64,000 nucleotides of DNA from Ignavibacteriota bacterium. Its GTDB lineage: Bacteria > Bacteroidota > Ignavibacteria > Tepidaquicellales > Tepidaquicellaceae. Positions 27,951-45,564 of this stretch are shown here, in pieces. The notes under the pieces were generated by a model. It made no database searches. It was not told where the DNA came from and saw only the letters and a program-made list of their open reading frames with translations. The position numbers and the translations under genes were made by a program. The stretch spans positions 496,001-560,000 of the forward strand of contig JACREY010000012.1 of NCBI GenBank assembly GCA_016218085.1, given 5' to 3'. Positions within the stretch are counted from its first letter, which is position 1; each line of letters opens with the position of its first letter.

Positions 27951-30737
27951 ATGTCTCCAAACATTAACCAAAATCCCGAACAAAGAGCAAGAGATAAAAT
28001 AGATAGTTTGCTTGAACAGAGTGGATGGTTTGTGCAAGACAAAAAATCTATTGACCTTAATGCAAATTACGGTATTGCTGTTAAAGAATACCAGACTGAT
28101 ATCGGACCTGCCGACTATGTCCTTTTTGCTAACCGCATACCTTTGGGTATAATTGAAGCAAAAAAGGAAGAAGAAGGACACCATTTATTAATTCATGAAG
28201 AACAATCCTATGAATACGCGAAAAGCAAATTAAAGTATTTAAAAAACGAACCTCTACCATTTGTTTACGAAAGCACAGGAACTATTACTCGTTTCACAAA
28301 TTACAATGATCCAAAACCTCGTTCCAGGGAAGTATTTACATTTCATCGCCCCGAAACACTTTTTAAAATTTTCAATAAAAAGAAGACATTAAGAGAGAAT
28401 TTACTGAATCTTCCATCTCTGCCTACGGAAAATCTCAGAGAATGTCAAAAAAATGCTATTATAAATCTTGAGAAGTCTTTAAAAGAAAACCGACCCCGGG
28501 CGTTAATTCAAATGGCCACCGGATCCGGTAAAACATTCACAGCTATTACGAGTGTATATCGCCTTTTAAAGCATGCAGGGGCAAATAAGGTATTATTCCT
28601 TGTTGATACGAAAAATTTAGGTGAACAGGCTGAACAGGAATTTCTGAAATATTTGCCAACAGATGATAATAGAAAATTTTCCGAGTTGTATAATGTAAAA
28701 AGATTAAGTTCCTCATATATTCCTCCTGATTGCCAGGTTTATATAAGCACGATACAAAGATTATATTCGATTTTAAAAGGAGAGGAACTTGATGAATCAA
28801 CTGAAGATATTAATCCTGCTGAAATATCATGGAAAATTAAACAGCCGGTTCCTGTCGTTTATGATTCAAAAATTCCTATTGAATTTTTTGATTTCATCGT
28901 AATAGATGAGTGTCATCGTTCAATTTACAATTTATGGAAACAAGTCCTTGATTATTTCGACTCCTTCTTGATAGGTCTTACAGCTACTCCTGATAACAGG
29001 ACTTTTGGCTTCTTCAATAAAAATATCGTTAGTGAATATACCCACGAACAAGCAGTAGCAGATGGAGTGAATGTTGGTTATGATGTTTTCTTGATTGACA
29101 CAAAAGTATCAAAAAAAGGCGGAAAAATTCCTTTCGGTGAATATATTGACAAAAGAGATAGACTGACAAGAAAGAGAAGATGGGAACAGGTAGATGAAGA
29201 AATTGAATACACCAATAAAGAACTCGATGATAAAGTTGTTAATCCCGACCAGATAAGGACTATTATAATAACGTTCAGGGATAATATCAAAAATATTTAT
29301 CCTGAAAGAATTAACGAAAAAGGTGAATATGAACTGCCAAAAACATTAATTTTCGCTAAAACAGATAGCCACGCTGATGATATTATTCAAATTGTCCGGG
29401 AAGAATTTGCAGAAGAAAACAAGTTTTGTAAAAAACTGACTTATAAAACGGAAGAAGATCCGAAATCTATTCTTGCTCAGTTCAGGAATGAATATTATCC
29501 AAGGATTGCAGTAACTGTCGATATGGTAGCCACAGGAACAGATGTAAAGCCATTGGAAATTCTTTTATTTATGCGTGATGTGAAATCGAAAAACTATTTT
29601 GAACAGATGAAAGGAAGGGGAACAAGGGTAATTTCTCTCGATGACCTGCGAAAAGTTTCACCCTCGGCGAAGATTATAAAAGATCATTTTGTAATTGTTG
29701 ATGCAATAGGCGTTACAAAATCCCTTAAAACAGATAGTCGTCCTCTGGAAAGAAAGCCTACGGTTCCTCTCAAATCCTTGCTTGATGCAATTGCAGTAGG
29801 AGCAAAAGATGAAGATTTGTTCCTTTCATTATCAAATCGGCTTGCACGTTTATCGAAACAGGTTACTGAAAAAGAGAATAAGCAATTTGAAGAAAAAACC
29901 AAAGGGAAAACATTAAATACAGTAGTTAATGAATTATTAAACGCATACAATCCTGATGTCATTGAAGATACTGCAAGGAAAAAGTTCAAAGTTCCGGATG
30001 GAGATGAAATTGACGAAAAACAATTAAATGAAGTTCAGGAAGAATTGCAGGTTAAGGCAGCTTCGACATTTAATGGAGATTTAAATGAATTTATTGATAA
30101 CGTCAGGAAAAACCACGAACAGATTTTAGATACACTTAATCCTGATAAAGTTATTTTTGTGGGATGGGATGAGACTCAGAAAGAAAACGCTAAAGAAATA
30201 TTAAAATCTTTCAGGCAGTATATTGAAGATAATAAAAATGAAATTATCGCACTTCAGATATTTTACAGCCAGCCTTTCAGAAGGCGCGAACTTACATTTG
30301 AGATAATCTCAGAACTTCTCGATAAAATCAAAAGCGAAAAACCAATCCTTTTGCCAAACAATGTATGGAGAGCATATGAAGCTCTGGGTAAGACAAAATA
30401 TGAAAAACCGGAAAAAGAACTTGTAACACTTGTATCTTTAGTCAGAAACGTAATCGGAATTGATAAAAGTCTAACGCCATTCGATAATATTGTAGATAAA
30501 AACTTCCAGACCTGGGTAATGAATATGCATAAGGGAAATGCTCCGAAGTTTAATGAGGAACAAATGACCTGGCTGCATATGATTCGGGATCACATTAAAA
30601 CATCGTTTCATATAGAAAAAAATGATTTTGAATATTCTCCTTTTGATTCAATCGGAGGATTGGGTAAAATGTGGCAGTTATTCGGTATTAAAACAGATGA
30701 AATAATAAATCAGTTAAACGAAACATTAGCGGCGTAA
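27951..30737 (+). CDS. hsdR: Type I restriction enzyme subunit R
   Basis: A 928-aa HsdR. N-terminal nuclease domain with the PD-(D/E)XK core (DYVLF about residue 48, E69-A-K71). An SF2 helicase motor follows: Walker A MATGSGKT (about 188-195), DECH box (319-322), TATP (about 344-347) and the C-terminal helicase half with TGTDVKP and QMKGRGTR. The C-terminal third is a coupling domain. It should cut unmodified foreign DNA after ATP-driven translocation together with the HsdM and HsdS subunits encoded at 44077 and 34307. Codon use is AT-rich but less so than that of the following genes. Confidence 0.95.
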   Translation: MSPNINQNPEQRARDKIDSLLEQSGWFVQDKKSIDLNANYGIAVKEYQTDIGPADYVLFANRIPLGIIEAKKEEEGHHLLIHEEQSYEYAKSKLKYLKNEPLPFVYESTGTITRFTNYNDPKPRSREVFTFHRPETLFKIFNKKKTLRENLLNLPSLPTENLRECQKNAIINLEKSLKENRPRALIQMATGSGKTFTAITSVYRLLKHAGANKVLFLVDTKNLGEQAEQEFLKYLPTDDNRKFSELYNVKRLSSSYIPPDCQVYISTIQRLYSILKGEELDESTEDINPAEISWKIKQPVPVVYDSKIPIEFFDFIVIDECHRSIYNLWKQVLDYFDSFLIGLTATPDNRTFGFFNKNIVSEYTHEQAVADGVNVGYDVFLIDTKVSKKGGKIPFGEYIDKRDRLTRKRRWEQVDEEIEYTNKELDDKVVNPDQIRTIIITFRDNIKNIYPERINEKGEYELPKTLIFAKTDSHADDIIQIVREEFAEENKFCKKLTYKTEEDPKSILAQFRNEYYPRIAVTVDMVATGTDVKPLEILLFMRDVKSKNYFEQMKGRGTRVISLDDLRKVSPSAKIIKDHFVIVDAIGVTKSLKTDSRPLERKPTVPLKSLLDAIAVGAKDEDLFLSLSNRLARLSKQVTEKENKQFEEKTKGKTLNTVVNELLNAYNPDVIEDTARKKFKVPDGDEIDEKQLNEVQEELQVKAASTFNGDLNEFIDNVRKNHEQILDTLNPDKVIFVGWDETQKENAKEILKSFRQYIEDNKNEIIALQIFYSQPFRRRELTFEIISELLDKIKSEKPILLPNNVWRAYEALGKTKYEKPEKELVTLVSLVRNVIGIDKSLTPFDNIVDKNFQTWVMNMHKGNAPKFNEEQMTWLHMIRDHIKTSFHIEKNDFEYSPFDSIGGLGKMWQLFGIKTDEIINQLNETLAA

Positions 30738-30803: not shown

Positions 30804-32897
30804 ATGAAAACTGTATTACCTTTCAAATTTATTAGTGTAGAATCCCGAAAAGGCGGTGTCGGAAAAACAACTGCCGCTTTAAATTTAGCAAAAATATTTA
30901 AAAATAGCGGGTATGTTGTATTATTAATTGATATAGATATTACAGGAACAAATATAATTTACGATTTAAGGTTTTCTTCTTTTTGGAAAGATGAAACAAA
31001 CAGTTTAGAGTTGATTGAAGATGATATTATATTAGATAAATATTTAAAGGAAGGAGAATCTGATAAATACAAAGCAAATCTACTTGATATTTATGAAAGA
31101 TTTTTTATGTGCGGAAAGGCATTGCCAGATTGGAAAATATCGGATAAAGTTGAAAAAAAAACTTTTTCAATAAAATTGAATAAAATAAATGTAATTGGGT
31201 CAGAAATATATAATGTTAATAATTCCGTTAATCCTAACAGGTTGATTTGTAATCCAAGTATTTTATTTGACGAATTACATTCATTTTGGTTTGTGGAGTT
31301 TTTAAAAGATATTTGCAAATCGTTTATAAATGTAACAAAAGGTGAAAAAACAGTTATTATTTTTGATAACTCACCTGGCTTTGTTGGTGTAAATCCAACA
31401 ATCCAAGAATGGCTTACTGATGTTGGTCCTGAAATCAGTAAATTTTTAACAGTGACTTCTTTGGATAAACAAGATTTAATTTCTTGTGAAAAAGCCATTG
31501 AGGAATTACAATTTATATATGAGTCAAAATATAATGCTGCAAAAGAATTTAGAAAAGCTAAATTAAACAAGAATCAAGATATTGATATTAAAAAGAATGA
31601 AGAAAATTTTTTTATTAGAATTGCATCTGATAGTTTGACAGATGAAATGAATTATTATGAGCATGATGACAATAAAAAATTTATTAATGATCTTAATAAA
31701 TATCAAGATTTTATCATTAATAAAGTTCCAAAATATTGGGGAAATTTAATAAATTATGATTACGACATAACTAAAGCTACATTAGGTAACTCAAAAATTA
31801 TTAACAAAATATTGAATAATGATTTTAAAAAAATATCAAAAAAATATGTCTATTTTGATAATTATATCAGTAATCAATTTATAGAATCATCGTTAACAAA
31901 GTCAACAAAACGAGGAGATAATTCAAAAAGATTAAGTTTGGCAATTACTAAAATTGAAAATGATATAAAAAGAAAAACGTCAATTGAAGAATACAATTGG
32001 GAATACATTGATAAGTCCAAAAAATATTATCTTATTAATAATAAGATTAATTTTTTACAAGTAAAATTAACCGAAGTAATTGAAAAACTAAATTTATATA
32101 ATTATCCTGAAATATCGGGATTAATAGAAAATGATTGGTATCCTAAGGCTCCTTTCGAAACTGTAAAACAATATTTATCGGAATTGTCATTTGACAGAGA
32201 ATATTATTATGAAGATATCGAATTAAATGAAATGGATAGTGAAAGAATGTATAATCAATTTATTAATATCGAAAATATTATTAATGAAAGAATAAGCATT
32301 AAATCGAGAAATATTTTTCTTAATAATTTTGAATATTTATTCTCTTTTAAAACTTTAATATTTATATTCTTAGCTCCTATTGGTCGAAGATACCCTATTT
32401 ATGAGGAATTTATTGAATTATTTACAGTCTTATTATCGTATCAAATTAATAAATTTATTAAATTAACTGAGAGTGAAAAAAAGATTGTATCATTGCAGAA
32501 ATTTCTCGCAAACGAAATAATGAAAGATGATGATATTAAGAATTATGAATTAAAGTTTCTATTCCATGGATATCGCAATTATTCTGGAGATAAAGAATCA
32601 TTTATTTCTGAATTTTATAATGCATTTTGTAAAGCTCAATCAAGATTAATAGATTTAGATAATGATTTTGGCTTTTTAATTTATGTTATAAGAAAAGCAA
32701 CATTTGAAAATAAAAACGAAGAACTAAAGATCTTTCCTTATATAAGAGATATTTTAAATGCTGTTATTATTAATAAGACAGTTTCTCGTTCAGAAGCAAG
32801 AAAATCAGTAGAAAAAGGATTTGCAAGTGCCAAATATATGGCTAATTTTGAGGATGTTTTAAAAGATATTCTTAAACGATGGGAGGTAAAATTATGA
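30804..32897 (+). CDS. ParA/MinD-like ATPase with large C-terminal extension
   Basis: A 697-aa protein. The N-terminal domain is a ParA/MinD-type NTPase with the deviant Walker A KGGVGKTT (residues 16-23), VLLIDIDITGTN and a Walker B-like VIIFDNSPGFVG. The remaining roughly 400 residues are helical, very AT-coded and not recognised. The protein is much longer than plasmid ParA (about 250-400 aa), and no ParB gene or centromere-like repeats are seen, so partitioning is unlikely. It overlaps the next (HD-domain) gene by 4 bp (ATGA) and stands between hsdR and hsdS. A role as an ATP-dependent sensor or switch of a defense unit is an inference. Confidence 0.75.
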   Translation: MKTVLPFKFISVESRKGGVGKTTAALNLAKIFKNSGYVVLLIDIDITGTNIIYDLRFSSFWKDETNSLELIEDDIILDKYLKEGESDKYKANLLDIYERFFMCGKALPDWKISDKVEKKTFSIKLNKINVIGSEIYNVNNSVNPNRLICNPSILFDELHSFWFVEFLKDICKSFINVTKGEKTVIIFDNSPGFVGVNPTIQEWLTDVGPEISKFLTVTSLDKQDLISCEKAIEELQFIYESKYNAAKEFRKAKLNKNQDIDIKKNEENFFIRIASDSLTDEMNYYEHDDNKKFINDLNKYQDFIINKVPKYWGNLINYDYDITKATLGNSKIINKILNNDFKKISKKYVYFDNYISNQFIESSLTKSTKRGDNSKRLSLAITKIENDIKRKTSIEEYNWEYIDKSKKYYLINNKINFLQVKLTEVIEKLNLYNYPEISGLIENDWYPKAPFETVKQYLSELSFDREYYYEDIELNEMDSERMYNQFINIENIINERISIKSRNIFLNNFEYLFSFKTLIFIFLAPIGRRYPIYEEFIELFTVLLSYQINKFIKLTESEKKIVSLQKFLANEIMKDDDIKNYELKFLFHGYRNYSGDKESFISEFYNAFCKAQSRLIDLDNDFGFLIYVIRKATFENKNEELKIFPYIRDILNAVIINKTVSRSEARKSVEKGFASAKYMANFEDVLKDILKRWEVKL

Positions 32898-34255
32898 AGT
32901 CGAAACTATTATCATTTTGTTATGATGATTTTGTTGATCTTGAATCAATAAAAAATATTTATCCACATAATTTTTTCCCATATATTTCAATTAATCATGT
33001 TAACTATAGAAGATTAGAGGATATTTATTATAAAAAAGGCTCTTTAAATCTTATTCAGAGTGCATTTTATGAATTACATAAAAGAGTTGGGGATAAATAC
33101 TATAAGATGGTGTATCCGAAACAAAGTTCAGCATTAAATTTTTCAATACGGTCATTTCCCTCTTATAAATTTCTTTTACCTCAGGTATTAGCTGATGATT
33201 GGCTTGCAATTGTAGGATGGCATAAAAAATTTAATAGAGACCATGCCCTCCATCAACCCATGACAGCTTATATAGTATATCAATTATTAGGTGGTGGTAA
33301 TGAGAATATTTCGATTCAAATTGGCGAGAAAACATTGTTAGAATGGTGTGTTGATAAATTATTGGATTGGGATAAAACAAAATATTTAAAGGAATATTTA
33401 ATAAACATTGGAGTAGAAAGGAAGAATATTTTTTTAAGTAATGATAAAGATAATCTTTTGAATAAGTTTTTTTGGAGGTCTTTATTTTTTGAAGTAGCAA
33501 TGGTTACAGCCATTTTTCACGATATTGGGTATCCCTGGCAATATATAAACAGTTTAAATAATAAATTAAGCCCTGCAGATTTTTCTTCTGATAATTCATT
33601 TGCAAACGCAGAGCATATATTCAAAAATTTCAGGAATCGTTTAATCTTATATCCTTTAAACGGATATAAATCATTAAAAAACGACGTTCCATCTAATTAT
33701 TATGATAAGTTGTTAAAACTTATTTCTAAAGCCCTATCAGAAACTCATGGTTTTCCTGGCGCACTTGGATTTCTTTATTTAAATGACATTATTAGAGAAT
33801 ATCCTAATAATAGAGAATTACCATTCCATCAGTTTTGTGTCGAATGGGCAGCAGTTGGTATCATGATGCATGATTTGTGTAAAATTTATCATGGCAAAAA
33901 TGAGGAAGAAATACCGGAGAACTATCATATGCGATTGGAGTTTGACAAAGATCCTCTATCTTGTATTATTACGTTAGCGGATATTATTGAAGAGTTTCAA
34001 AGACCTAATGTGACTTTTAAAACAAATTATGATCATAGTATATTTAAATATCCCTCTTTATGCAAAAAATCGGAGATTTTCTGTGATAATGATAACTTAA
34101 ATATCACATTTAAATATGAAGATGAAAAAGCTGCCAGTCTAAAAAAATTGTATTTAAAAAAAGAAGCAAAAGAATATTTTGATAATAACTATGGATATAT
34201 AGATTTATCAAGTATAGGAATAAAAAATGTAATTGTAAATGCTGTTGTTGATTAA
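32894..34255 (+). CDS. HD-domain protein coupled to the ParA-like ATPase
   Basis: About 453 aa. The ATG at 32894 is chosen because it follows GGGAGGT and forms ATGA with the previous stop. Candidate metal ligands of an HD phosphohydrolase are visible: H117 and H120 (DHALHQPM), H209-D210 (FHDIGYPW), H285 (ETHGFPG) and D363 (LADIIEEF), with a further HD pair at 326-327 (MHDLCKIY). HD enzymes hydrolyse nucleotides, cyclic nucleotides or phosphoesters; dNTP depletion and signal degradation are known defense uses of the fold. No other domain is recognised. Pairing with a P-loop ATPase suggests a two-gene unit. Substrate unknown. Confidence 0.7.
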   Translation: MKSKLLSFCYDDFVDLESIKNIYPHNFFPYISINHVNYRRLEDIYYKKGSLNLIQSAFYELHKRVGDKYYKMVYPKQSSALNFSIRSFPSYKFLLPQVLADDWLAIVGWHKKFNRDHALHQPMTAYIVYQLLGGGNENISIQIGEKTLLEWCVDKLLDWDKTKYLKEYLINIGVERKNIFLSNDKDNLLNKFFWRSLFFEVAMVTAIFHDIGYPWQYINSLNNKLSPADFSSDNSFANAEHIFKNFRNRLILYPLNGYKSLKNDVPSNYYDKLLKLISKALSETHGFPGALGFLYLNDIIREYPNNRELPFHQFCVEWAAVGIMMHDLCKIYHGKNEEEIPENYHMRLEFDKDPLSCIITLADIIEEFQRPNVTFKTNYDHSIFKYPSLCKKSEIFCDNDNLNITFKYEDEKAASLKKLYLKKEAKEYFDNNYGYIDLSSIGIKNVIVNAVVD

Positions 34256-34306: not shown

Positions 34307-35503
34307 ATGGAACTGAAGATTTTAGAACAGGTATGTTTATTTTCTAAAGGAAAAAAACCAAAAAAACTTTCAAAAGAAAAGAGTAAAGATTTGTGCGTTC
34401 CTTATATAAATATTAAAGCATTTGAGAAAGGGATTATTGACGAATATACCGATGGTGAAAAATGTAACTTATGCAATAATGGCGATTTATTAATGGTTTG
34501 GGATGGGGCAAGAGCCGGATTGACAGGGAAAGCAAAAAAAGGAGCAATAGGTTCAACACTTATGAAAATTGAACCTAAAGAAGGTTTGTCTAAAGAATAT
34601 CTTTTTTATTTTCTTAAATCTTTATATGAAAAAATAAATTCAAATCCTCGCGGAGTTGGCATTCCTCATGTCGAACCATCTTTGCTTTGGAGTTCAAAAA
34701 TAGTTATACCATCAATTTCATTGCAAAACAAAATCGTAGAAAAAATAGAAGAACTTTTTAGTGAGCTTGATAATGGAATAGAAGAACTGAAAAAAGTTAA
34801 GGAACAATTAAAAGTCTACCGCCAGTCCGTCCTCTCTGCCGCCTTCTCTGGAAAATTGACAAATACAAATTTGAAAAATGGAGAATTACAGAAAGAAATG
34901 ATAGAAGTAAAATTAGGAGATCATGCTTTTATAACAAAACTTGCTGGTTTTGAATTCACTAAGTATGTTAAATATAAGGAAAAAGGTGATATACCTGTTA
35001 TTAGAGCCCAAAATGTTTCTAAAATCGGATTTATAGAAAGGAATTTTATCTATGTAGATAGAGGTATTATGGAAAAACTTCCGAGATCGAGAGTTTATGG
35101 CGGTGAGATATTAATGGTATTTGTTGGTGCTGGTTTAGGAAATGTAGGTATAGTTCCATTTAATAAGGAGTATTTTTTAGGACCTAATGTTGCCAAAATA
35201 GTTTTGAGGAATGAATATTATAATAAGTTTATACTTTATTACTTATCTTCTATTGTGGGTTTTGGGAATGTATTAAAAAAGTCAAAGGCCACAGCTCAAG
35301 GTTCAATTTCAATGGCAAATATTAGGGAGGTATATGTTCCATTTGTTTCGTTTGAAGATCAACAAAAAATCGTAAAAGAAATCGAAAAACGGCTCTCGGT
35401 ATGCGATAAAATGGAAGAAACAATAAAAACCTCTTTAGCACAATCCGAATCTCTCCGCCAGAGCATCTTAAAACAAGCCTTCGAAGGGAAATTAATAAGA
35501 TAA
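34307..35503 (+). CDS. hsdS: Type I restriction specificity subunit
   Basis: A 398-aa HsdS with two target-recognition domains (about residues 1-140 and 195-350), each followed by a conserved helical spacer: ELDNGIEELKKVKEQLKVYRQSVLSAAFSGKL after the first, and EIEKRLSVCDKMEETI...LRQSILKQAFEGKL at the C-terminus, quoted here in part. It determines the DNA site of the R/M complex. The last roughly 120 bp are duplicated at 38943-39062, after the next gene. It lies between the HD-domain gene and the NERD-helicase gene rather than beside hsdM. Confidence 0.93.
   Translation: MELKILEQVCLFSKGKKPKKLSKEKSKDLCVPYINIKAFEKGIIDEYTDGEKCNLCNNGDLLMVWDGARAGLTGKAKKGAIGSTLMKIEPKEGLSKEYLFYFLKSLYEKINSNPRGVGIPHVEPSLLWSSKIVIPSISLQNKIVEKIEELFSELDNGIEELKKVKEQLKVYRQSVLSAAFSGKLTNTNLKNGELQKEMIEVKLGDHAFITKLAGFEFTKYVKYKEKGDIPVIRAQNVSKIGFIERNFIYVDRGIMEKLPRSRVYGGEILMVFVGAGLGNVGIVPFNKEYFLGPNVAKIVLRNEYYNKFILYYLSSIVGFGNVLKKSKATAQGSISMANIREVYVPFVSFEDQQKIVKEIEKRLSVCDKMEETIKTSLAQSESLRQSILKQAFEGKLIR
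35374..35493 (+). repeat. hsdS 3'-end repeat, copy 1
   Basis: The region encoding EIEKRLSVC...LRQSILKQAFEGK at the hsdS end. A diverged direct copy lies at 38943-39062 with the same frame and strong nucleotide identity. Confidence 0.85.
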
Positions 35504-35513
35504 TACATAAATT

Positions 35514-38500
35514 ATGCTAAAATCTATTTTACAAAATGATTTTTCCAGAACTCAGGAGAACGAAATGTTTCGTGAGTTTAAAAATATTCTGCAAAACGAA
35601 TATGGAAAAAAAGAAGACTATATATATTTAATAGGTAATATTATAATAAAAAACGGTCCCTTCAGAAGCGAAATAGATGCCATCTTATTGAAAAAAAATG
35701 CAGTAATTATTATCGATTTTAAGGATAATGGAGGAAAGTTGAATTTTAGTTTAGATGAAGATTGGAAGATGGAAGATAACATTGTAAAAGGAGGAAGTCA
35801 TAAAAACCCATTTCATCAAATAAGGTCTTATAAGGCAAATTTATATCATTATCTGGATGATAATAAAGAAAATTTTTTAAACAAAGGTAATGTTCAGGAT
35901 TTCACACATATTAATGGATTAGTTTTATTTAGAAGAAATATTGTTTTTGACAGGAATGAATTACCGGGTAAAATAAGACCATGGTTTCATATTTGTGATA
36001 TGAATACTGTCATTGGGAAAATAAATGATATCGCCTCACCGAAAATAAACATAGAAAAATCTGAATATGAAAATCTACTAAGTTTATCGAAAATTGACTT
36101 AAAAGTAGAAGAATCTAAACCACCTGTGGTTTTAACTCCGGTTTACGAGCAAAAAAATGTAAAAAACACAACTGAAGAAAAAATTCTGGATTACTATATG
36201 AGCTGTCTTGAGCAAGAGCAATTAAAGCAGCTTCAGTTAATCGCTAAAAAAGATGGGAATGGTGTATTTGAGAAATCAAATAATTTTCGATATTTAAATG
36301 GTAATATTTATGAATTATTTTCCGGAGTTGAAACTGAACTAAATGCAATATTAAATGATGATTTAAAGAATTTTATTGATAGAGAAAATCAAAAGGCAAA
36401 TCCGAGATCGTTATTCTGCGGATATTCCATTTTCTCAAAAAGTAATAATGGGAATGAATATATATATCCGGCTTTTTATTGCCAATTAAAATATAATACC
36501 CAAACAAATAAATACGAAAGATCTTCGTTAGGTGATTGTTTTTTTAATAAAGCTCTGTTATTAAATCTTGGTTATAATGATAGAGAAGAAATTGAAAGTA
36601 TTAGTAACTTAATTGATTCTTTGGGTTTATTTGAAGATAAAATTAAAAAGTTGAAAGAAATAATTTCATCTTCTCAAAATGTAAGCATTACTTTAAATTC
36701 TGATTCGATATTGTTTTTTAGTGAGACATCTTCGACAATATACAATTTACTTAAAGAGCTTGGAGAAAATGGATTATCGAGAGATTTTGTAATTAATAGG
36801 CTAATAATGGAAACACCTGCGAAATATTTAACAGGTAACTTAAAACCAATTAATAATAAAAGTATTAACTCTCCTTTTCCTATTTTAGAGATTTTTAGAT
36901 TAAATAACTCGCAGGAGGAGGCTGTTTCAAAATGTTTAAATAATGATTTTACTGTCATAACCGGGCCCCCGGGAACTGGAAAATCGCAGGTGATTTTGAA
37001 TATAATAGCAAACGCTGTTTATGAGAATAAAACAGTTTTGTTTGCAAGTAAAAATAACAAGGCCGTAGATGTTGTAATTGAAAGAATGTTAAATGAAGTA
37101 TTAATAGAGTCAAATTTGCGGAATACAATTATAAGGTTAGGGAATAAGGAAGTAATTAGAGAGGAAATTGATAAATTGGTTGCTTTGTCAAACCAATTAA
37201 ACGACCAAAATATATCATATGAATCAGAAACAATTAATGGCTTAAATATTCTCCTTAAAAAGGTAAATGAGGAAATAAATATAATTAATAACAATATTGC
37301 TGATTCACATAATTATTTAGACAAAATAGATTACCTTCTTACTTTAGAGAATGTCATTTACTCTGCATTTTTTAACAGGGAAAAATATGAATTAGGAATT
37401 GAAGAAATAGAATTTGTAATTGAAGAAATTAAGAAACTTATTGATAGTAATTCGGGCTTATTGAAAAAAATATTAATAAAATTATTCAAATTCTGTTTTA
37501 AGAAAAAATATTTTAATAAATATATTTTATTTAAATCAAAACTACCTGTTAGCATTAGAGATTATTACGAACGCGAAAAATCCATGAATATGCGTTTTTC
37601 GTTTCAAGATTTATTAGAAAGAATAGATTATCTGAAAGTCGTCAAGCAAACCGAAATTGAAATAAAAAAGATAATAAATTTCATTTTAGAAAAGATTATT
37701 GTTGAAGATGAAAAATTATTTAATATTAATGAAGCAAAAAATTTAATAATTAACTACATAGAAAATCAAAAAACGAATCTTTTCGATAAACATTCTGAGA
37801 AAATTAAATTATCGAGAAATATATTTGCTGAGAAAATTAAAGAAAAAATTAGTAGTAATAATTTTAATAATATCATTACTAAGTATATAAGCAATATAAG
37901 AAAATTTAACAGAATAGATGGGGAAGATATACCAAATGATCAATTTAGCCAGTTCATGACTCAGTGGGAGGAAAACGCTGAAAACCTGGTTAAGAATCTT
38001 CCGGTTTGGACTGTTACAAGCCTTTCAGCGCGTAATGGTATTCCACTTAAAGATAAAATATTTGATTTACTTGTAATTGACGAAGCATCTCAGTGTGACA
38101 TACCCTCAGCAATTCCATTATTTTATCGGGCAAAAAAAATATGCATTCTGGGAGATGATATGCAATTAAGACATATACCGGGAATAAAAGAGTCAGAAGA
38201 TAAAGAAATAGCAGTAAGTTGTGGAATATCTGCAATTGGTGGTAGATATACAAAATACTCATTATATGATATTAGTGAAATTTTAATGAAAAAATCAAAT
38301 GAGAGGATTTATTTCTTAGATGAGCATTTCAGAAGCCATGAAAATATAATGAAATTCTCAAATGAATATTTTTATTTACCTAAAAAAGGGAGAGAAATGG
38401 TAAATAAAACTATTCCATCAACATTAATATATCCAAAGCAGGGCATATTTTGGGTCGATGTAATCGGGGGGGATGAAGTAATTGACAAATACAATAAAAA

Positions 38501-38906
38501 CGAAATTGATAAGTGCATAGAGCTTTATAAACATTTGAAAAAAAATCAGATAAATGATGAGACTACTTATGGAATTGCAACCCCTTTTAGAAACCAGGCA
38601 AATAAAATAGCGAAAAAACTAATAGACGTCAGAATTAATACAAAAGATACAATTAATGTTCTTGGTAATACAGTTCATGTATTCCAGGGAGATGAAAGAG
38701 ATCTAATTTTACTTTCCTTAGTTGTATCCAACAATGCCACCTTAAGTATGGTCAATTTTATTAATTATGTTTCTATACAATTATTAAATGTAGGAATATC
38801 AAGGGGCCGAAGTGCTGTATTTGTTGTTGGAGATAAAAAATTCTGTAAAAAGTCGGGGGGATTATTGAAAAATTTGGCGGATTATACCGAGGATTATAGT
38901 TTTTAA
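35514..38906 (+). CDS. NERD-domain superfamily 1 helicase
   Basis: A 1130-aa protein. The N-terminal roughly 170 residues resemble the NERD nuclease-related domain (RSEIDAILLKKNAVIIIDFKD gives D...DxK; quoted region about 43-63). The helicase core is DNA2/UPF1-like: Walker A GPPGTGKS (484-491), Walker B DEASQ (856-860), ILGDDMQLRHIP and a C-terminal VFQGDERDLI / GISRGRSAVFVVGD. A long helical insertion (about 540-820) separates the two parts. Nuclease-helicase proteins of this plan are found in phage defense loci. The gene starts 10 bp after hsdS and is followed by a copy of the hsdS tail, so it seems to have been inserted at the hsdS 3' end. Confidence 0.85.
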   Translation: MLKSILQNDFSRTQENEMFREFKNILQNEYGKKEDYIYLIGNIIIKNGPFRSEIDAILLKKNAVIIIDFKDNGGKLNFSLDEDWKMEDNIVKGGSHKNPFHQIRSYKANLYHYLDDNKENFLNKGNVQDFTHINGLVLFRRNIVFDRNELPGKIRPWFHICDMNTVIGKINDIASPKINIEKSEYENLLSLSKIDLKVEESKPPVVLTPVYEQKNVKNTTEEKILDYYMSCLEQEQLKQLQLIAKKDGNGVFEKSNNFRYLNGNIYELFSGVETELNAILNDDLKNFIDRENQKANPRSLFCGYSIFSKSNNGNEYIYPAFYCQLKYNTQTNKYERSSLGDCFFNKALLLNLGYNDREEIESISNLIDSLGLFEDKIKKLKEIISSSQNVSITLNSDSILFFSETSSTIYNLLKELGENGLSRDFVINRLIMETPAKYLTGNLKPINNKSINSPFPILEIFRLNNSQEEAVSKCLNNDFTVITGPPGTGKSQVILNIIANAVYENKTVLFASKNNKAVDVVIERMLNEVLIESNLRNTIIRLGNKEVIREEIDKLVALSNQLNDQNISYESETINGLNILLKKVNEEINIINNNIADSHNYLDKIDYLLTLENVIYSAFFNREKYELGIEEIEFVIEEIKKLIDSNSGLLKKILIKLFKFCFKKKYFNKYILFKSKLPVSIRDYYEREKSMNMRFSFQDLLERIDYLKVVKQTEIEIKKIINFILEKIIVEDEKLFNINEAKNLIINYIENQKTNLFDKHSEKIKLSRNIFAEKIKEKISSNNFNNIITKYISNIRKFNRIDGEDIPNDQFSQFMTQWEENAENLVKNLPVWTVTSLSARNGIPLKDKIFDLLVIDEASQCDIPSAIPLFYRAKKICILGDDMQLRHIPGIKESEDKEIAVSCGISAIGGRYTKYSLYDISEILMKKSNERIYFLDEHFRSHENIMKFSNEYFYLPKKGREMVNKTIPSTLIYPKQGIFWVDVIGGDEVIDKYNKNEIDKCIELYKHLKKNQINDETTYGIATPFRNQANKIAKKLIDVRINTKDTINVLGNTVHVFQGDERDLILLSLVVSNNATLSMVNFINYVSIQLLNVGISRGRSAVFVVGDKKFCKKSGGLLKNLADYTEDYSF

Positions 38907-38920
38907 TAAATTTCAAATAT

Positions 38921-39070
38921 ATGGTATCTAAAATAAAAATAAAAGAAGAAATCGAAAAGCGTTTATCGGTATGCCACAAAATGGAAGAACCAATAGTAAA
39001 ATCTTTGGCTGGATCCGAATCCCTCCGCCAAAGCATCTTAAAACAAGCCTTTGAAGGAAAAATAAAATGA
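38921..39070 (+). pseudogene. hsdS C-terminal fragment (duplicated tail)
   Basis: A 49-codon ORF whose residues from about 9 on match the last roughly 44 residues of HsdS: EEIEKRLSVCHKMEEP, then ESLRQSILKQAFEGK. There is no target-recognition domain. It ends in TGA overlapping the ATG of the next gene (ATGA), so translation of the fragment could feed the membrane protein. It is best read as the leftover of the original hsdS end, or of a second hsdS gene, after insertion of the NERD-helicase gene. Confidence 0.85.
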
Positions 39071-39702
39071 TAAAAAATTTAAAAACTGTTTATAATTTTA
39101 CTAAGAAATATATATGGATAATTACTTCGTGTTTTGCTGTTTCAGCATTTTTAATAAAAGAAGAAACAAGAAACTTTGTATGGAACAATGGAATCACGAT
39201 TTTATTAATATTACAGTCAATTATTATAATTTTATTATTAATTGTAATCATTATTGGCAAACTTAAAATTCCTCACAATGATGTAAGTGTTTATAATAGA
39301 TTAATGAACATTTTGAATTTGCATTCAACAGAATATATTCTAAGGGATATGCAAAATAATTTACCAATTGCACTTGCTGATTTAAGAATATTAAATGACT
39401 TTGTTTTTGAAATCGCTCATGTGAATAACAGAATATTGAATAAAAAACTAAATAGACTTATGATGAATTTTAGCAATTCCTTATCGCAATATTTAAAGAG
39501 ACATGCAAGTTGTACTGTCCCAATTAGGGGGAACTCTACACATGTTTCATTTGATCCTGAATTTAAACAAAACAATCATGAATTATATGAAAGTAGAGTA
39601 AAAGAATTAGATGACCTGGCTTCGGAAGCATTTAGGCATCTCGGAATACTGATGAATTATGCGGCTAAAAAAAATATTAATAGGAATCAAATATCTACTT
39701 AA
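39067..39702 (+). CDS. Two-TM membrane protein in the RM island
   Basis: A 211-aa protein with two N-terminal transmembrane helices (about residues 15-33 and 42-66; IWIITSCFAVSAFLI, ITILLILQSIIIILLLIVIII) and a cytosolic helical domain of about 140 residues. This layout is like SLATT-type and other membrane effectors that work next to a cytosolic sensor, but no signature was recognised. It is translationally coupled to the hsdS fragment (ATGA) and followed 9 bp later by a nuclease-like gene. Function unknown; toxicity by membrane damage is one hypothesis. Confidence 0.65.
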   Translation: MIKNLKTVYNFTKKYIWIITSCFAVSAFLIKEETRNFVWNNGITILLILQSIIIILLLIVIIIGKLKIPHNDVSVYNRLMNILNLHSTEYILRDMQNNLPIALADLRILNDFVFEIAHVNNRILNKKLNRLMMNFSNSLSQYLKRHASCTVPIRGNSTHVSFDPEFKQNNHELYESRVKELDDLASEAFRHLGILMNYAAKKNINRNQIST

Positions 39703-39711
39703 ATAAATAAT

Positions 39712-40611
39712 ATGGAAAACATTCACATTCACGAAGACACCTCTAAACCAGAAAATAGGGTTAATCTTACACTATTTCATCTTCTAATGATTGATGAAGT
39801 TAATGGCTTTATTAAAAAAAGGTTAGGCATTCCATCGGAATCTTTATTATATCCTTCGCCTAATTTATCTGTTGAGGAATTTGATGTTTGCGGCAGACCG
39901 GACTTTGTAATTAATTTAAATAATCAGACTATAGGATATATAGAAGTTGAATTAGGAAGAGAAGATATTGAACAAATTACAAGATACAGAAAGATTGAAA
40001 CCGCAAAGGTTTTCTCTGTAGTGGGAAAAAAAGATTATAACGAAGGAAATCTTGCTCTCGATGAAATATATAATCATCTTCAAATGATTAAAGAGAAATA
40101 TGAAAATACACAGAAGTATTATAGCATCCGGCTTTTTGAAAAATTGATAGAATATTATATTATTCAAAATAATTTTAAAATCAATTCAAAGTCGGTAAAT
40201 TTATCCGATAAAATGAGAAATTCTTTTATAGTAGATTATTTTTACAAATATTTTGGAGAAGAAAGGATTCTTGAAAACGAAAAAGCGGAATCTGGTAAAG
40301 TAATGTTTAACACAAGGGGTGAAAATGGATTTTCGTTAAGAATATATTCGAGAGAGTCAAAGGTAGATAAAAGTTTAAGCTTAATGAATAGGTCCGGGGG
40401 ACGGCATGAAATAAATTTTCCATCGAAAATTAAATTATATAAATACCTTCCTTATGATAAAGCTGGAGTTGATAGTTATGTGAATTTTATTGCTTCACTT
40501 GGAGCAAAGGATATTTTGGTAAACGGAGAAAAAGGATTTGTCCATTTGCCATTAAACATTGTAGAAAAAAACATCGATAAATTTTGCGAATTAATAAGCA
40601 AATTGATGTAA
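39712..40611 (+). CDS. PD-(D/E)XK nuclease-like protein 1
   Basis: A 299-aa soluble protein. The candidate nuclease core is GRPDFVINLNNQTIGYIEVELGRED (about residues 62-87, seen as D...ExE), where the usual Lys of ExK is replaced by Glu-Leu, so activity is uncertain. The C-terminal part (YKYLPYDKAGVDSYVNFI) is not recognised. It is the first of four consecutive genes with the nuclease-like pattern, in the same direction as hsdM. A role in restriction of foreign DNA is inferred from context. Confidence 0.6.
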   Translation: MENIHIHEDTSKPENRVNLTLFHLLMIDEVNGFIKKRLGIPSESLLYPSPNLSVEEFDVCGRPDFVINLNNQTIGYIEVELGREDIEQITRYRKIETAKVFSVVGKKDYNEGNLALDEIYNHLQMIKEKYENTQKYYSIRLFEKLIEYYIIQNNFKINSKSVNLSDKMRNSFIVDYFYKYFGEERILENEKAESGKVMFNTRGENGFSLRIYSRESKVDKSLSLMNRSGGRHEINFPSKIKLYKYLPYDKAGVDSYVNFIASLGAKDILVNGEKGFVHLPLNIVEKNIDKFCELISKLM

Positions 40612-40641
40612 TCATAAAAAACCTTATGTAAAGGGAAATAA

Positions 40642-41598
40642 ATGAAAGATTTATTAATAAATATTGCCGGGTTATCTTCGGAGGATCTGACAACAGAGGT
40701 ATTAAGAATAATTCTCACAGATGAAAATTATGCTGTTTATCAGAGGTTGTTTTACAATTATTTTTTTGGAGATAATATAAATAAATCTACTAAGGAACTG
40801 AAATATGAAATAATAACACAAAAGTCTTTTTTTGAGGGAAGGCCTGATATTATAATTGAAGGGGGAAACGAGATTTATATTATTGAAAATAAATTCTACG
40901 CAGGTTTTAGTCAAGGTGACCAAATAAAACGTTACAAAGATATTATCAATAGATACTATAAGGAATTCCAGAGAAAGGAAGTTTTATTATTGACTACTGA
41001 TGGACGGAAAAAGTTTTATGAAGAGCTTTTAAATAATGATGGAATTTCAATAAGGTTTCTATCCTGGAACTTTTTATTAGATTTATTTTATTCAAATGAT
41101 TTTCTTATTTCAGCATTATCTAATTATATATATTATAATTTTATTTTACAAATTGAATTTTCTAAAAAGGAGTTAGAAATGTTAAATACTACGGAAATCC
41201 CAAATACCATTGACAAATTATTGAAAGTTGTAGATAAAATAAAGACTCAATTGCAAGATATTGGATTTAAAGTTGGAAGGACTTCTCAATCTATTAATTT
41301 TTATGGATACTTTGTAGAAAATGATGTTATGAAAATATGGTTTGGTTATGGCTTATTATGGTGGCAAGAATGCACAAAGGTTATTTCTCCATTATTTATT
41401 CAGATAAGAGAGGATTTTAGTCCGGTTTATAAATTCGATGATAATTTTATTAGTGTCCTATTGAAGATGGGTTTTTTTGAGTCTGGGAAAAATAATTGGA
41501 TTAAACCGATAGATTCAAATCTATATAAAGATGAAACAGAAATGGCAAAGGAAATTAAAAAATACTTTGATGAATTAATAAAGCATATTATAAAATAA
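40642..41598 (+). CDS. PD-(D/E)XK nuclease superfamily protein 2
   Basis: A 318-aa protein with the PDDEXK_4-like pattern: FFEGRPDIIIEGG, then EIYIIENKFYAGFSQGDQIKRY (about residues 70-98; D-x(n)-ExK with downstream Gln). The ExK is intact (ENK). The C-terminal domain contains DIGFKVGRTSQSINFYGYF and WFGYGLLWW, typical of C-terminal parts of DUF-type nuclease proteins. It follows gene 1 by 30 bp. Probably an active endonuclease-fold protein; target unknown. Confidence 0.72.
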   Translation: MKDLLINIAGLSSEDLTTEVLRIILTDENYAVYQRLFYNYFFGDNINKSTKELKYEIITQKSFFEGRPDIIIEGGNEIYIIENKFYAGFSQGDQIKRYKDIINRYYKEFQRKEVLLLTTDGRKKFYEELLNNDGISIRFLSWNFLLDLFYSNDFLISALSNYIYYNFILQIEFSKKELEMLNTTEIPNTIDKLLKVVDKIKTQLQDIGFKVGRTSQSINFYGYFVENDVMKIWFGYGLLWWQECTKVISPLFIQIREDFSPVYKFDDNFISVLLKMGFFESGKNNWIKPIDSNLYKDETEMAKEIKKYFDELIKHIIK

Positions 41599-41626
41599 TA
41601 ATTTTATAAAGTCTAAAAATAATTAT

Positions 41627-43120
41627 ATGAAACTTTGGAGATTTGGTCAAATTAAAATAAAAGATGGTTGGGAGATATTTTATAAAGAAAATATTTTAAC
41701 TTTTAATTGGCTCAAAGCTAATATTAATTATAAAAATATAAAGAATCTAAAGAAAATTAACGGTTGGACTTGCATTACACCATGGGTTAAAGAGCTAAAA
41801 AAAGGAGATTTAATATTTTTGTTTAGTAGAAATTCTTACGCAGGTGTTGCAATTGCGGAAGAATCGTATAAATATAATATTAATGACTTTAAAATATTGG
41901 GAAAGGAAAGACCCGGAATAAAAGTAAAGTTTCTACATAAACTGAAAACACCAGTTGAACATGGAATTGAAATATCGCATAAAAATCCAAAGGTTTTTAC
42001 AAGAGTTGGTGATTTAAAGTTTTCTTCTTTTATGATATTAAATTTTATTAAAAAAAAATATAAGGATAAATATAACATTATTATTGATTATATTAAAAAT
42101 AATTTTAATTCGGAATCCGAAAAAATATCAAGAATTTGCTGGAATACCAATCGATGGAGATTCCCAAGTGGACCGGAAGGAAAAACTAAAACGAAAAACA
42201 CATATGAATCAAAATATAACTACGGTCACGAAGAATGGCTATCAAACAATACCAGACCAATTAGTGGGTATAATTATGGATTTTTACAGACTTTAAATAT
42301 GATTAGCAATAGACATATCGATAAAAGTTACAGAATTTATTTATATACAATTAATGATGCGAACGAACGATTATTAGTCGGAGAAATAAGAAATGGCTGG
42401 TGTATTAGTAAAGCTGAATCAGTTTTTGTATATAATATTTATAAGAGAAAGAAATGGATTGATGAAATGGTAATAGACTTAAATAATTATGACATTAATT
42501 TGAAGCCTTTTTTAAAGACCTCACCAAAAATCTTTTTTAATTTAAAGTATAAAAAAGAAGATATTATAATTTATGAAATACCTATAAATATTATTTCATT
42601 TAATAAAAACATATCTTCATCACGATACAAATTGTTAGATAAAATTACTGATTTTAAAATTATATCTACTGAAGCTTCTGATAATAAAGGAACTTCTAAT
42701 GATAAAAGCACAAAAAAGGTGACAAGAAAATTAAAAGGTGGTAAAGTTACTTATGACCCTGTGCATAATAAAATTCAAAATATTTTACATAGTTATTTAG
42801 AATCAAAAGGAGAATATAAAAAGGTAAAGAAAGAGGTGGATGGTGTTGATGTCTGGGCAAAAACAAATCAAAATAAATTACATTTTTATGAAGTTAAAAC
42901 AAACAATTCAAAATTATCCATTAGGAATGCATTGGGACAAGTATTAGAATATTCCTGTTGGCCGGAACTGAACAAAGCTGAAAAGCTGATTATAGTTTCC
43001 GATAGTGAAGAAGATGAAGAAACGAAAAAGTATATGAAACATATACGAAATAAATATAATATACCCATATTTTATATGTCATATTCATTTGAAAAGAATA
43101 AATTCGGAGGATTAATATAA
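41627..43120 (+). CDS. Two-domain protein with C-terminal PD-(D/E)XK nuclease fold
   Basis: A 497-aa protein. The N-terminal roughly 150 residues look like a modified-base or EVE/PUA-like reader (WTCITPWVKELKKGDLIFLFSRNSYAGVAIA), which would recognise modified DNA or nucleotides; this is a guess from pattern. A basic, low-complexity linker follows (about 345-375). The C-terminal domain has the nuclease core VDVWAKTNQNKLHFYEVKT (D...EVK; about 408-427) and GQVLEYSCWPE. It overlaps the next gene by 1 bp. This plan suits a type IV-like restriction enzyme working beside the type I system. Confidence 0.65.
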   Translation: MKLWRFGQIKIKDGWEIFYKENILTFNWLKANINYKNIKNLKKINGWTCITPWVKELKKGDLIFLFSRNSYAGVAIAEESYKYNINDFKILGKERPGIKVKFLHKLKTPVEHGIEISHKNPKVFTRVGDLKFSSFMILNFIKKKYKDKYNIIIDYIKNNFNSESEKISRICWNTNRWRFPSGPEGKTKTKNTYESKYNYGHEEWLSNNTRPISGYNYGFLQTLNMISNRHIDKSYRIYLYTINDANERLLVGEIRNGWCISKAESVFVYNIYKRKKWIDEMVIDLNNYDINLKPFLKTSPKIFFNLKYKKEDIIIYEIPINIISFNKNISSSRYKLLDKITDFKIISTEASDNKGTSNDKSTKKVTRKLKGGKVTYDPVHNKIQNILHSYLESKGEYKKVKKEVDGVDVWAKTNQNKLHFYEVKTNNSKLSIRNALGQVLEYSCWPELNKAEKLIIVSDSEEDEETKKYMKHIRNKYNIPIFYMSYSFEKNKFGGLI

Positions 43121-44052
43121 TGCAACTCGGGAAATTAGAAAAAGTCGATTTAAGGAAACAATGGAAATTTGAGGAAAACTTTTCGGAGTGGCTTGCAGGG
43201 GAAGAGAATATCTCACTGCTTAGCGAAGAAATTGGTATTGAATTTTATGTTGTGAATCAGGAAGAACATGTAGGACCATTTAGAGCAGATATATTGTGCA
43301 AAGATGAAAATAACCATTTTGTATTAATTGAAAATCAGATAGAAAAAACAGACCATAAGCATTTAGGACAGTTGATGACATATGCGGCTGGATTGGAAGC
43401 TGTTACGATAATATGGATATCAAAAAATTTTACAGATGAACATAGAGCTGCAATAGATTGGCTTAACGGAATTACATCCAGCGGGTTTAATTTTTTTGCA
43501 ATTGAAATAGAATTATACAAAATAGGAGATAGTCTTGCTGCTCCTAAGTTTAATATAGTAGCCCAACCAAACGATTGGTCTAAAACACTAAGAAGCTCTG
43601 CAAAAGGAGAAATGTCTGAAACCAAGACGTTACAATTGGAATTCTGGAAAGCGTTTTGCGAATACCTTGAAAATTCAAAATCTAAAATAAGAGCAGGAAA
43701 ACCACAGCCACAGCACTGGCTTTCTTTTTTTGGATTTGGTAAAAGCGGTTTCCACGTTGATGCTTTTGCAAACACGTGGGATAAAAGAATCGGTGTTATT
43801 TTTTTGATGACTGGAGACAAAGCAAAGGAAAATTATTTTAAACTTAAAGAAAAATATGAAATAGAAATAAATAAAAAATTCAATAATGAACTAATATGGA
43901 AACAATCTGAAGATGTTAAAGAATGTAAATTAGCTTTAAGACATTCTGCTGATATTAGGGATAGAAATGATTGGAATAAACAACATAAATACTTAAAGGA
44001 AAAAATCGAAGATTTCTTTGAGTTTTTTGTACCATTAATAAAGCAAATTTGA
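43120..44052 (+). CDS. DUF4268-type PD-(D/E)XK protein
   Basis: A 310-aa protein with the layout I remember for DUF4268 proteins: LEKVDLRKQWKFEENFSEWLA at the start, the nuclease-like core FRADILCKD...VLIENQIEKTDHKHLGQL (about 49-85; ExQ in place of ExK) and AVTIIWISKNFTDEHRAAIDWLN. The catalytic Lys is replaced by Gln, a change also seen in active Holliday-junction-type relatives. It is the fourth nuclease-like gene in a row and lies 24 bp before hsdM. Such proteins are frequent in RM and mobile-element contexts; the exact role is unknown. Confidence 0.78.
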   Translation: MQLGKLEKVDLRKQWKFEENFSEWLAGEENISLLSEEIGIEFYVVNQEEHVGPFRADILCKDENNHFVLIENQIEKTDHKHLGQLMTYAAGLEAVTIIWISKNFTDEHRAAIDWLNGITSSGFNFFAIEIELYKIGDSLAAPKFNIVAQPNDWSKTLRSSAKGEMSETKTLQLEFWKAFCEYLENSKSKIRAGKPQPQHWLSFFGFGKSGFHVDAFANTWDKRIGVIFLMTGDKAKENYFKLKEKYEIEINKKFNNELIWKQSEDVKECKLALRHSADIRDRNDWNKQHKYLKEKIEDFFEFFVPLIKQI

Positions 44053-44076: not shown

Positions 44077-45564
44077 ATGTCAGAAAATACTTCATCGATT
44101 GTTTCTAAGGTCTGGAATTTCTGCCACACACTTCGTGATGATGGTGTAGGATATGGGGATTATCTTGAACAGCTTACTTATTTACTATTTTTAAAGATGG
44201 CAGATGAGTTTTCAAAGCCTCCTTATAATAGAAATTTGCAAATCCCCAAAAAATATAATTGGGAAAGTTTAACAGAACTAAAAGGTGCTGAACTGGAATT
44301 GCATTATTCAACTTTACTTAGAGAACTTAGCAATCAAAAGGGTATTCTTGGGCAAATATTTACTAAATCTCAGAATAAAATTCAGGATCCGGCAAAACTA
44401 TATAGACTTATAGAGTTGATTGATAATGAAGAATGGAATATGATGGCAACTGATGTTAAAGGAGAAATTTATGAAGGTCTTCTTGAAAAAAACGCCGAAG
44501 ATACAAAAAGCGGCGCAGGTCAATATTTTACCCCTCGCGCACTTATAAGAACGATGGTAGAATGTTTAAGGCCTGAGCCGATGAAAACAATTGCTGATCC
44601 TGCCTGCGGAACAGGTGGCTTTTTTCTGTCTTCGTATGAATTTATTAGCAAAAGTTATAAACTTGATAAAAAACAAAAAGAGTTTTTAAAATTTAAAACT
44701 TTCGCAGGAAATGAAATTGTTGCAAACACAAGGAGATTGTGTCTTATGAATTTATTCCTGCACAATATTGGTGATATTGAAAGCGACAACTATATTTCTC
44801 CTGCAGATTCACTTGTAGCTGATTCAGGAGCAAGATTTGATTATGTGTTAACTAATCCTCCTTTCGGAAAAAAAAGCAGTATGACTTTTACAAACGAAGA
44901 AGGGGAACAGGAAAAAGAGGATTTAACTTATAACAGGCAGGATTTTTGGGCGACAACAAGCAACAAACAGCTGAATTTTGTTCAGCATATTAAGACCATG
45001 CTTAAAACAACGGGTAAAGCAGCCGTAGTTGTTCCAGATAATGTTTTATTTGAAGGTGGAGCTGGGGAGACAGTCAGAAAAAAGCTTCTCGAGACAATTG
45101 ATTTACACACAATATTAAGACTTCCAACAGGTATATTTTATGCTCAGGGAGTAAAAGCAAATGTAATTTTCTTTGATTCAAAACCTGCATCTAAAGAAAA
45201 TCAGACTAAGGAAATTTGGTATTATGATTATAGGACCAATATTCATCATACGCTAAAGAAAAATCAGCTAAAAAAAGATGATCTTGAAGAATTTATTAAA
45301 TGTTACAATCCTGAAAATCGTTTTAAAAGAAAAGAATCATATCATCCGGAGAAAAATCCCGAAGGGAGATGGAGAAAGTTTGCGTTTGATGAAATTATTG
45401 CAAGAGATAAAACAAGTCTTGATATATTTTGGTTAAAAGACAAAAGCCTTGCCGATTTGGATAATCTTCCGGATCCGGATGAACTCGCATTAGATATCGT
45501 AGAAAATTTAGAAGCTGGACTTGAGAATTTCAGAGAAATAATAAAGAAGTTGAATAGTAAATAA
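44077..45564 (+). CDS. hsdM: Type I restriction DNA methyltransferase subunit
   Basis: A 495-aa HsdM. The N-terminal helical domain (about 1-150) is followed by the N6-adenine methylase core: GQYFTPRALIRTM, the SAM motif IADPACGTGGFF (about 172-183) and the catalytic NPPF (260-263). The C-terminal helices interact with HsdS. It methylates host DNA at the site chosen by HsdS and is needed for restriction. It is the last gene of the RM block and is separated from hsdS by about 8.6 kb, an unusual distance. A paired TTTACAACT repeat lies 18 bp after its stop. Confidence 0.95.
   Translation: MSENTSSIVSKVWNFCHTLRDDGVGYGDYLEQLTYLLFLKMADEFSKPPYNRNLQIPKKYNWESLTELKGAELELHYSTLLRELSNQKGILGQIFTKSQNKIQDPAKLYRLIELIDNEEWNMMATDVKGEIYEGLLEKNAEDTKSGAGQYFTPRALIRTMVECLRPEPMKTIADPACGTGGFFLSSYEFISKSYKLDKKQKEFLKFKTFAGNEIVANTRRLCLMNLFLHNIGDIESDNYISPADSLVADSGARFDYVLTNPPFGKKSSMTFTNEEGEQEKEDLTYNRQDFWATTSNKQLNFVQHIKTMLKTTGKAAVVVPDNVLFEGGAGETVRKKLLETIDLHTILRLPTGIFYAQGVKANVIFFDSKPASKENQTKEIWYYDYRTNIHHTLKKNQLKKDDLEEFIKCYNPENRFKRKESYHPEKNPEGRWRKFAFDEIIARDKTSLDIFWLKDKSLADLDNLPDPDELALDIVENLEAGLENFREIIKKLNSK

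Follow-up and report, generated by a model that had tools for sequence, protein, structure and literature searches.

One of the described systems closest to the locus reported here is Clover, in which the HD dGTPase CloA is joined by the nucleotidyltransferase CloB; its example makes clear that defence can be built on an HD effector with a partner that regulates it (PMC12265719). The dGTPases that act in prokaryotic defence (Tal et al. 2022, cited in PMC12265719) and SAMHD1, HD metalloenzymes as well, deprive phage or virus of nucleotides, and as a rule they carry H...HD...D. This is the usual mononuclear ligand set, whereas H...HD...H...H...D marks a dinuclear site and is shared by YqeK, HD-GYP, PgpH, the HD domains of Cas3/Cas10 and MIOX/PhnZ (reviewed in PMC8177086).

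The pair of genes described here (Table 1) combines a ParA-type ATPase with an HD protein showing H...HD...H...H...D, and lies in a stretch of 64,000 nucleotides, called the window, from an Ignavibacteriota bacterium (GCA_016218085.1, contig JACREY010000012.1, positions 496,001 to 560,000). It shares with Clover the two-gene build of an HD enzyme and a putative regulatory partner as well as the defence neighbourhood (PMC12265719). However, the partner is a ParA ATPase and not a nucleotidyltransferase, the HD protein has two ligand histidines more than CloA, and no invariant His or Glu is found within 40 residues after D210, while CloA has the pair H126/E129 near its HD motif (PMC12265719); on partner type and on these His/Glu features, assignment of the pair to Clover was rejected. 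A described ParA and HD defence pair was found neither in PADLOC 2023, NCBIfam 2026 or Pfam nor in the literature, preprints being mostly outside the scope of the search, which agrees with the sequence-only reading that had drawn attention to the locus. The pair is probably a previously undescribed two-part defence module.

Table 1. Features of the gene pair and of the type I restriction locus around it (window coordinates).
Feature	Position	Strand	Support or remark
Gene 1, ParA/MinD-like (SIMIBI-type) ATPase, 697 aa	30804..32897	+	ORF, Pfam, homologues upstream of HD in L046-L051, model
Gene 1 domain layout: residues of about 1-310 form the ATPase core and about 330-697 a helical C-terminal region			C-terminal region without family match
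Deviant Walker A with signature lysine, KGGVGKTT, residues 16-23	30849..30872	+	invariant 7/7
D43-x-D45, Walker A' aspartates of ParA-type ATPases	30930..30938	+	invariant 7/7
Walker B region IFDNSPG, residues 186-192	31359..31379	+	I186, D188, N189, P191, G192 invariant 7/7
Translational coupling by ATGA, shared by the ParA stop and the HD start	32894..32897	+	sequence; homologue junctions
Gene 2, HD-domain metalloenzyme, 453 aa	32894..34255	+	ORF, sub-threshold Pfam HD, alignment
RDHxxHQ (R115-Q121), with H117 and first metal ligand H120	33236..33256	+	alignment
HD dyad H209-D210 within FHDIGYP	33518..33523	+	alignment
H285, third ligand position	33746..33748	+	alignment
H326, fourth ligand position	33869..33871	+	alignment
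D363, last ligand position	33980..33982	+	alignment
HsdR, type I restriction subunit, directly upstream of the pair	27951..30737	+	Pfam, PADLOC
HsdS, type I specificity subunit, 51 bp downstream of HD gene	34307..35503	+	only HsdS gene of the genome
HsdM, type I methylase, same interrupted locus	44077..45564	+	TIGR00497 and MADS2 below cut-off, sequence order

The first protein belongs to the ParA-type SIMIBI ATPases, as KGGVGKT(T/S) with its signature lysine, D-x-D and Walker B are present in all seven homologues, among which K16, GGVGKTT, D43, D45, G48-T49, D188-N189, P191-G192, D221 and D224 are invariant. The Pfam models CbiA, AAA_31 and ParA match above their cut-offs and cover the P-loop part only, and PADLOC gave a weak P-loop match to PDC-M28B and nothing else. 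In the predicted model (pLDDT 63) confidence is good for the ATPase core and low for the C-terminal helices; the best matches of its N-terminal part in a fold search are ParA, MinD and Get3 structures. The likeness to ParA, MinD, Soj and Get3 thus extends over the deviant Walker A, D-x-D, Walker B and the N-terminal fold, but unlike them the window protein has 697 residues, a long helical C-terminal region outside any known family and an HD partner, and it stands without ParB, MinE or Get partner. The unmatched C-terminal part of this KGGVGKTT protein, already pointed out in the sequence-only reading, is borne out by the family searches: the C-terminal two thirds match no Pfam, NCBIfam, PADLOC or PHROG model, and they diverge fast, with a mean column conservation of 0.35-0.48 in the seven members. 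A whole-length search of 296 genomes returned, besides the window itself, ordinary P-loop matches only. As a separate observation, the last helix (last 20 codons of 30804-32897) is strongly amphipathic, with L686 and W693 invariant, and possibly serves as a docking or membrane helix; it ranks first or near first in some members only, so no membrane claim is made.

In the HD protein, all seven homologues keep R115, D116, H117, H120, Q121, H209, D210, H285, H326, D327, D363, E367 and R370 without exception. These homologues share 27-56% pairwise identity, and eleven invariant His/Asp positions among them exceed what chance would leave. The residues H117, H120, H209-D210, H285 and D363 had been placed correctly before, and each is invariant (7/7), but H326 had been missed. 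The superfamily set H...HD...D (H120, H209, D210, D363) is kept in the seven close and in four distant members; apart from D327 and E367, all the invariant residues are also invariant in the alignment of the distant relatives, with R115, D116, H117, H120, H209, D210, H285, H326 and D363 as nine of the key positions retained in 4/4. Because H120, H209-D210, H285, H326 and D363 together fit the six-residue H...HD...H...H...D pattern, we infer a dinuclear HD enzyme, either a phosphohydrolase or a phosphodiesterase, acting on a nucleotide-type phosphoester, whether nucleotide, cyclic nucleotide or nucleic acid. Compared with the dinuclear enzymes mentioned above, there is no match to any solved chain in PDB searches with the protein or its profile and no conserved GYP motif in the alignment, and H326 is followed by D327 and not by the second His of HH; an assignment to HD-GYP was rejected on the latter two grounds. 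An HD dNTPase was rejected as well, on the residues after D210 noted above. The Pfam HD model stays below its cut-off on the window protein, yet it is touched in 7/7 members, while as a family the protein has no Pfam, NCBIfam, PADLOC or PHROG model, PADLOC being blank in every member; nor was a DNA-binding domain matched. The predicted model, built from the seven-row alignment, is mostly helical (pLDDT 72, pTM 0.83), and a fold search against PDB and viral libraries gave no significant match, the weak ones including exopolyphosphatase and PDE10; since the model matches no solved HD structure significantly, the fold assignment rests on sequence motifs.

The two genes are joined at AAAATTATGAAG, where the ParA stop TGA (32895-32897) overlaps the HD ATG at 32894, which bears out the ATGA coupling proposed earlier. 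In a mechanical listing the HD reading frame begins at 32879, but the ParA stop overlaps ATG 32894 and the coupled protein is therefore 453 aa long. A scan of about 85,000 genomes with RDHxxHQ and FHDIxY, motifs common to distant HD relatives, recovered six further close HD loci (L046-L051) with 30-56% identity over the HD protein, hosted by Candidatus Tenebribacter and another Cloacimonadota bacterium, two Bacteroidales, one Aminicenantes and one unclassified bacterium. A long ParA homologue stands directly upstream of the HD gene in all six, with the genes overlapping or abutting, so that the pairing expected from the window holds in each of the seven close HD relatives, whose genomes are unrelated. 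The ParA homologues match nearly end to end in five loci and over the ATPase part only in L051, the most distant. ParA and HD diverge in strong correlation (r = 0.95, a value reached by 2 of 5040 label permutations), to which shared species history would add, though the species come from different phyla. There is one copy of the pair in the window genome, and it occurs in 1 of 395 genomes of the phylum (the window's own), in 2 of 125 of the phylum Cloacimonadota and in 1 of 295 of the order Bacteroidales. Three HD members found no match by tblastn in 72,556 plasmids, nor did the window HD protein in phages; pattern scans of viral contigs found no pair members, and the single plasmid match of the window ParA is an ordinary ParA adjoining ParB. 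The pair is best read as a rare, mobile two-gene unit.

The surroundings of the pair point to defence, as had been anticipated: five of the seven pairs have known or candidate defence genes as neighbours, in two cases those of type I restriction and otherwise BREX, AbiL or a candidate ATPase. In the window the pair interrupts a type I restriction locus within an island of 25-35% G+C, against mostly 39-41% upstream, and the AT-rich stretch around it carries two tyrosine recombinases (integrases). Upstream of the pair in L049 are type I M and S genes (hsdM and hsdS, at about 5 kb), together with a PDC-S11 protein and a HEPN AbiU2 protein; in L047 the pair is preceded by AbiLi/AbiLii and followed by an HSDR_N protein and two TPR proteins, of which one matches NB-ARC. 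BrxL and a SIR2 protein of the ThsA type lie within 10 kb of the pair in L050, and a PDC-M29A-like ATPase follows 21 bp downstream in L048. Little is added by L051, where a large pentapeptide/WD40 protein overlaps the HD stop, and by L046, a short contig. Two of the seven genomes (window and L049), each with a single HsdS gene, have this gene less than 10 kb away from the pair, against about 0.05 such cases expected by hand arithmetic from gene counts and genome sizes; the window locus was picked by a reader already looking for defence, and without it one is observed against about 0.04.

A profile search of the phylum genomes also yielded distant HD relatives without a ParA partner. One (L004/L052) is a receiver-HD (REC-HD) protein adjoining a GAF-containing kinase, and three (L043-L045) have a GAF-like N-terminal region, a label assigned by eye from the sequence, Pfam being blank for the one scanned. 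The HD protein of the pair is homologous to these REC- and GAF-associated domains (BLASTP E = 4e-9; hhalign probability 97%), and the relatives share its invariant ligands and a position near defence genes (AbiL, AbiD and type II restriction genes), but their inputs are fused or two-component. At 5519-9349 of L004 (Chlorobiaceae), a GAF-GAF kinase with receiver is followed by the receiver-HD protein, a Fic-like protein and an AbiLi/AbiLii pair; here the same HD enzyme takes a two-component form and again has defence genes around it. In L045 (7609-11027) an AbiD gene stands just downstream of the GAF-like-HD protein, and in L053 (9425-18205, Oscillospiraceae) the genes after an HD relative encode a DUF4231-type protein and large proteins with leucine-rich repeats, which looks like another conflict cluster.

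Taken with a probability of roughly 0.52, the pair is a horizontally moving two-gene conflict or defence module in which the ATPase controls a dinuclear HD enzyme and a nucleotide-type substrate is destroyed on infection. Judged from its relatives, the HD domain would be an output enzyme under changing controllers, and the ATP-switched ParA-type partner would, through its helical C-terminal region, take the controlling place held elsewhere by GAF-like or receiver inputs. Genomic context suggests that on infection the ATPase might change its nucleotide state or release its partner; the HD enzyme would then become active and destroy its substrate, and phage growth, or the cell, would stop. The HD protein is placed as output and ParA as controller mainly because HD relatives controlled by GAF-like and receiver domains exist. 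A more specific proposal, which we advance tentatively, is that the pair represents a new class of immune module, with a ParA-type ATPase as infection sensor or switch of a dinuclear HD effector, and forms one branch of an HD-effector superfamily with interchangeable inputs (ParA ATPase, GAF-like domain, two-component receiver). If this is right, bacterial immunity counts ParA-type ATPases among its switch proteins and a class of dinuclear HD enzymes among its effectors. The homologous HD enzymes under other controllers are a ready comparison set, and with two genes, obvious catalytic residues and six diverse homologues the proposal is directly testable.

The main rival, in our view unlikely, reverses the roles: the HD subunit would degrade a signal or act as a restraint, by removing a small nucleotide signal, and ParA with its helical region would be the effector on DNA, membrane or another target. 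Fast divergence of the C-terminal two thirds, as in many effectors or sensors, would suit such a role of ParA, as would its amphipathic last helix with the invariant Leu and Trp, and HD enzymes are often signal phosphodiesterases (PMC8177086); against this, sensory or receiver domains are found on the distant HD relatives, which have no ParA, and this is the build of output enzymes. Metabolism or signalling could also be the whole function, the operon, for instance one of a cyclic-dinucleotide phosphodiesterase and an ATPase that regulates it, being a mere passenger of islands. The GAF-like and receiver domains of the relatives are common in ordinary signalling, but the sparse spread over several phyla, at the frequencies given above, and the recurrence of defence neighbours, also for the distant relatives, make this improbable.

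Two further readings start from the surroundings of the window pair. Its place between hsdR and hsdS, the hsdM and hsdS genes upstream in L049 and the HSDR_N protein downstream in L047 would suit an accessory of type I restriction, acting for instance in the control of restriction activity or target choice. We regard such a role as improbable too, however, as no type I specificity gene stands beside the pair in L048, L050 or L051, of which L050 adjoins BREX, and the window type I locus holds other, unrelated cargo. Much the least credible is a partition or maintenance cassette of an integrated element, formed by ParA and a divergent partner, despite the ParA-type ATPase and the nearby integrases. 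ParB_N genes are present in all seven genomes (one match in the window genome), always on other contigs and never beside the pair, and because of this partition was rejected, in line with the initial view; moreover, the plasmids and the viral-contig scans hold no member, and the protein paired with ParA has an intact metalloenzyme site and matches no DNA-binding domain.

With the preferred reading of a mobile defence module set against these alternatives, the remainder of the interrupted type I locus can be described briefly. A direct repeat of 144 nt (81%) of the hsdS 3' end, at 35365-35508 and 38935-39078, brackets a gene at 35514-38906, as if cargo were turned over by recombination at the hsdS end. 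This gene encodes a 1130-aa protein with NERD and superfamily 1 helicase parts, its best PADLOC matches being PDC-M16A and MkoC/MkoA, and is a second candidate defence cargo of the same locus. Between the helicase and hsdM (39067-44052) follow five more genes, uncharacterised or nuclease-like, one matching PDC-S26 and one touching NucS, which are probably more defence cargo.
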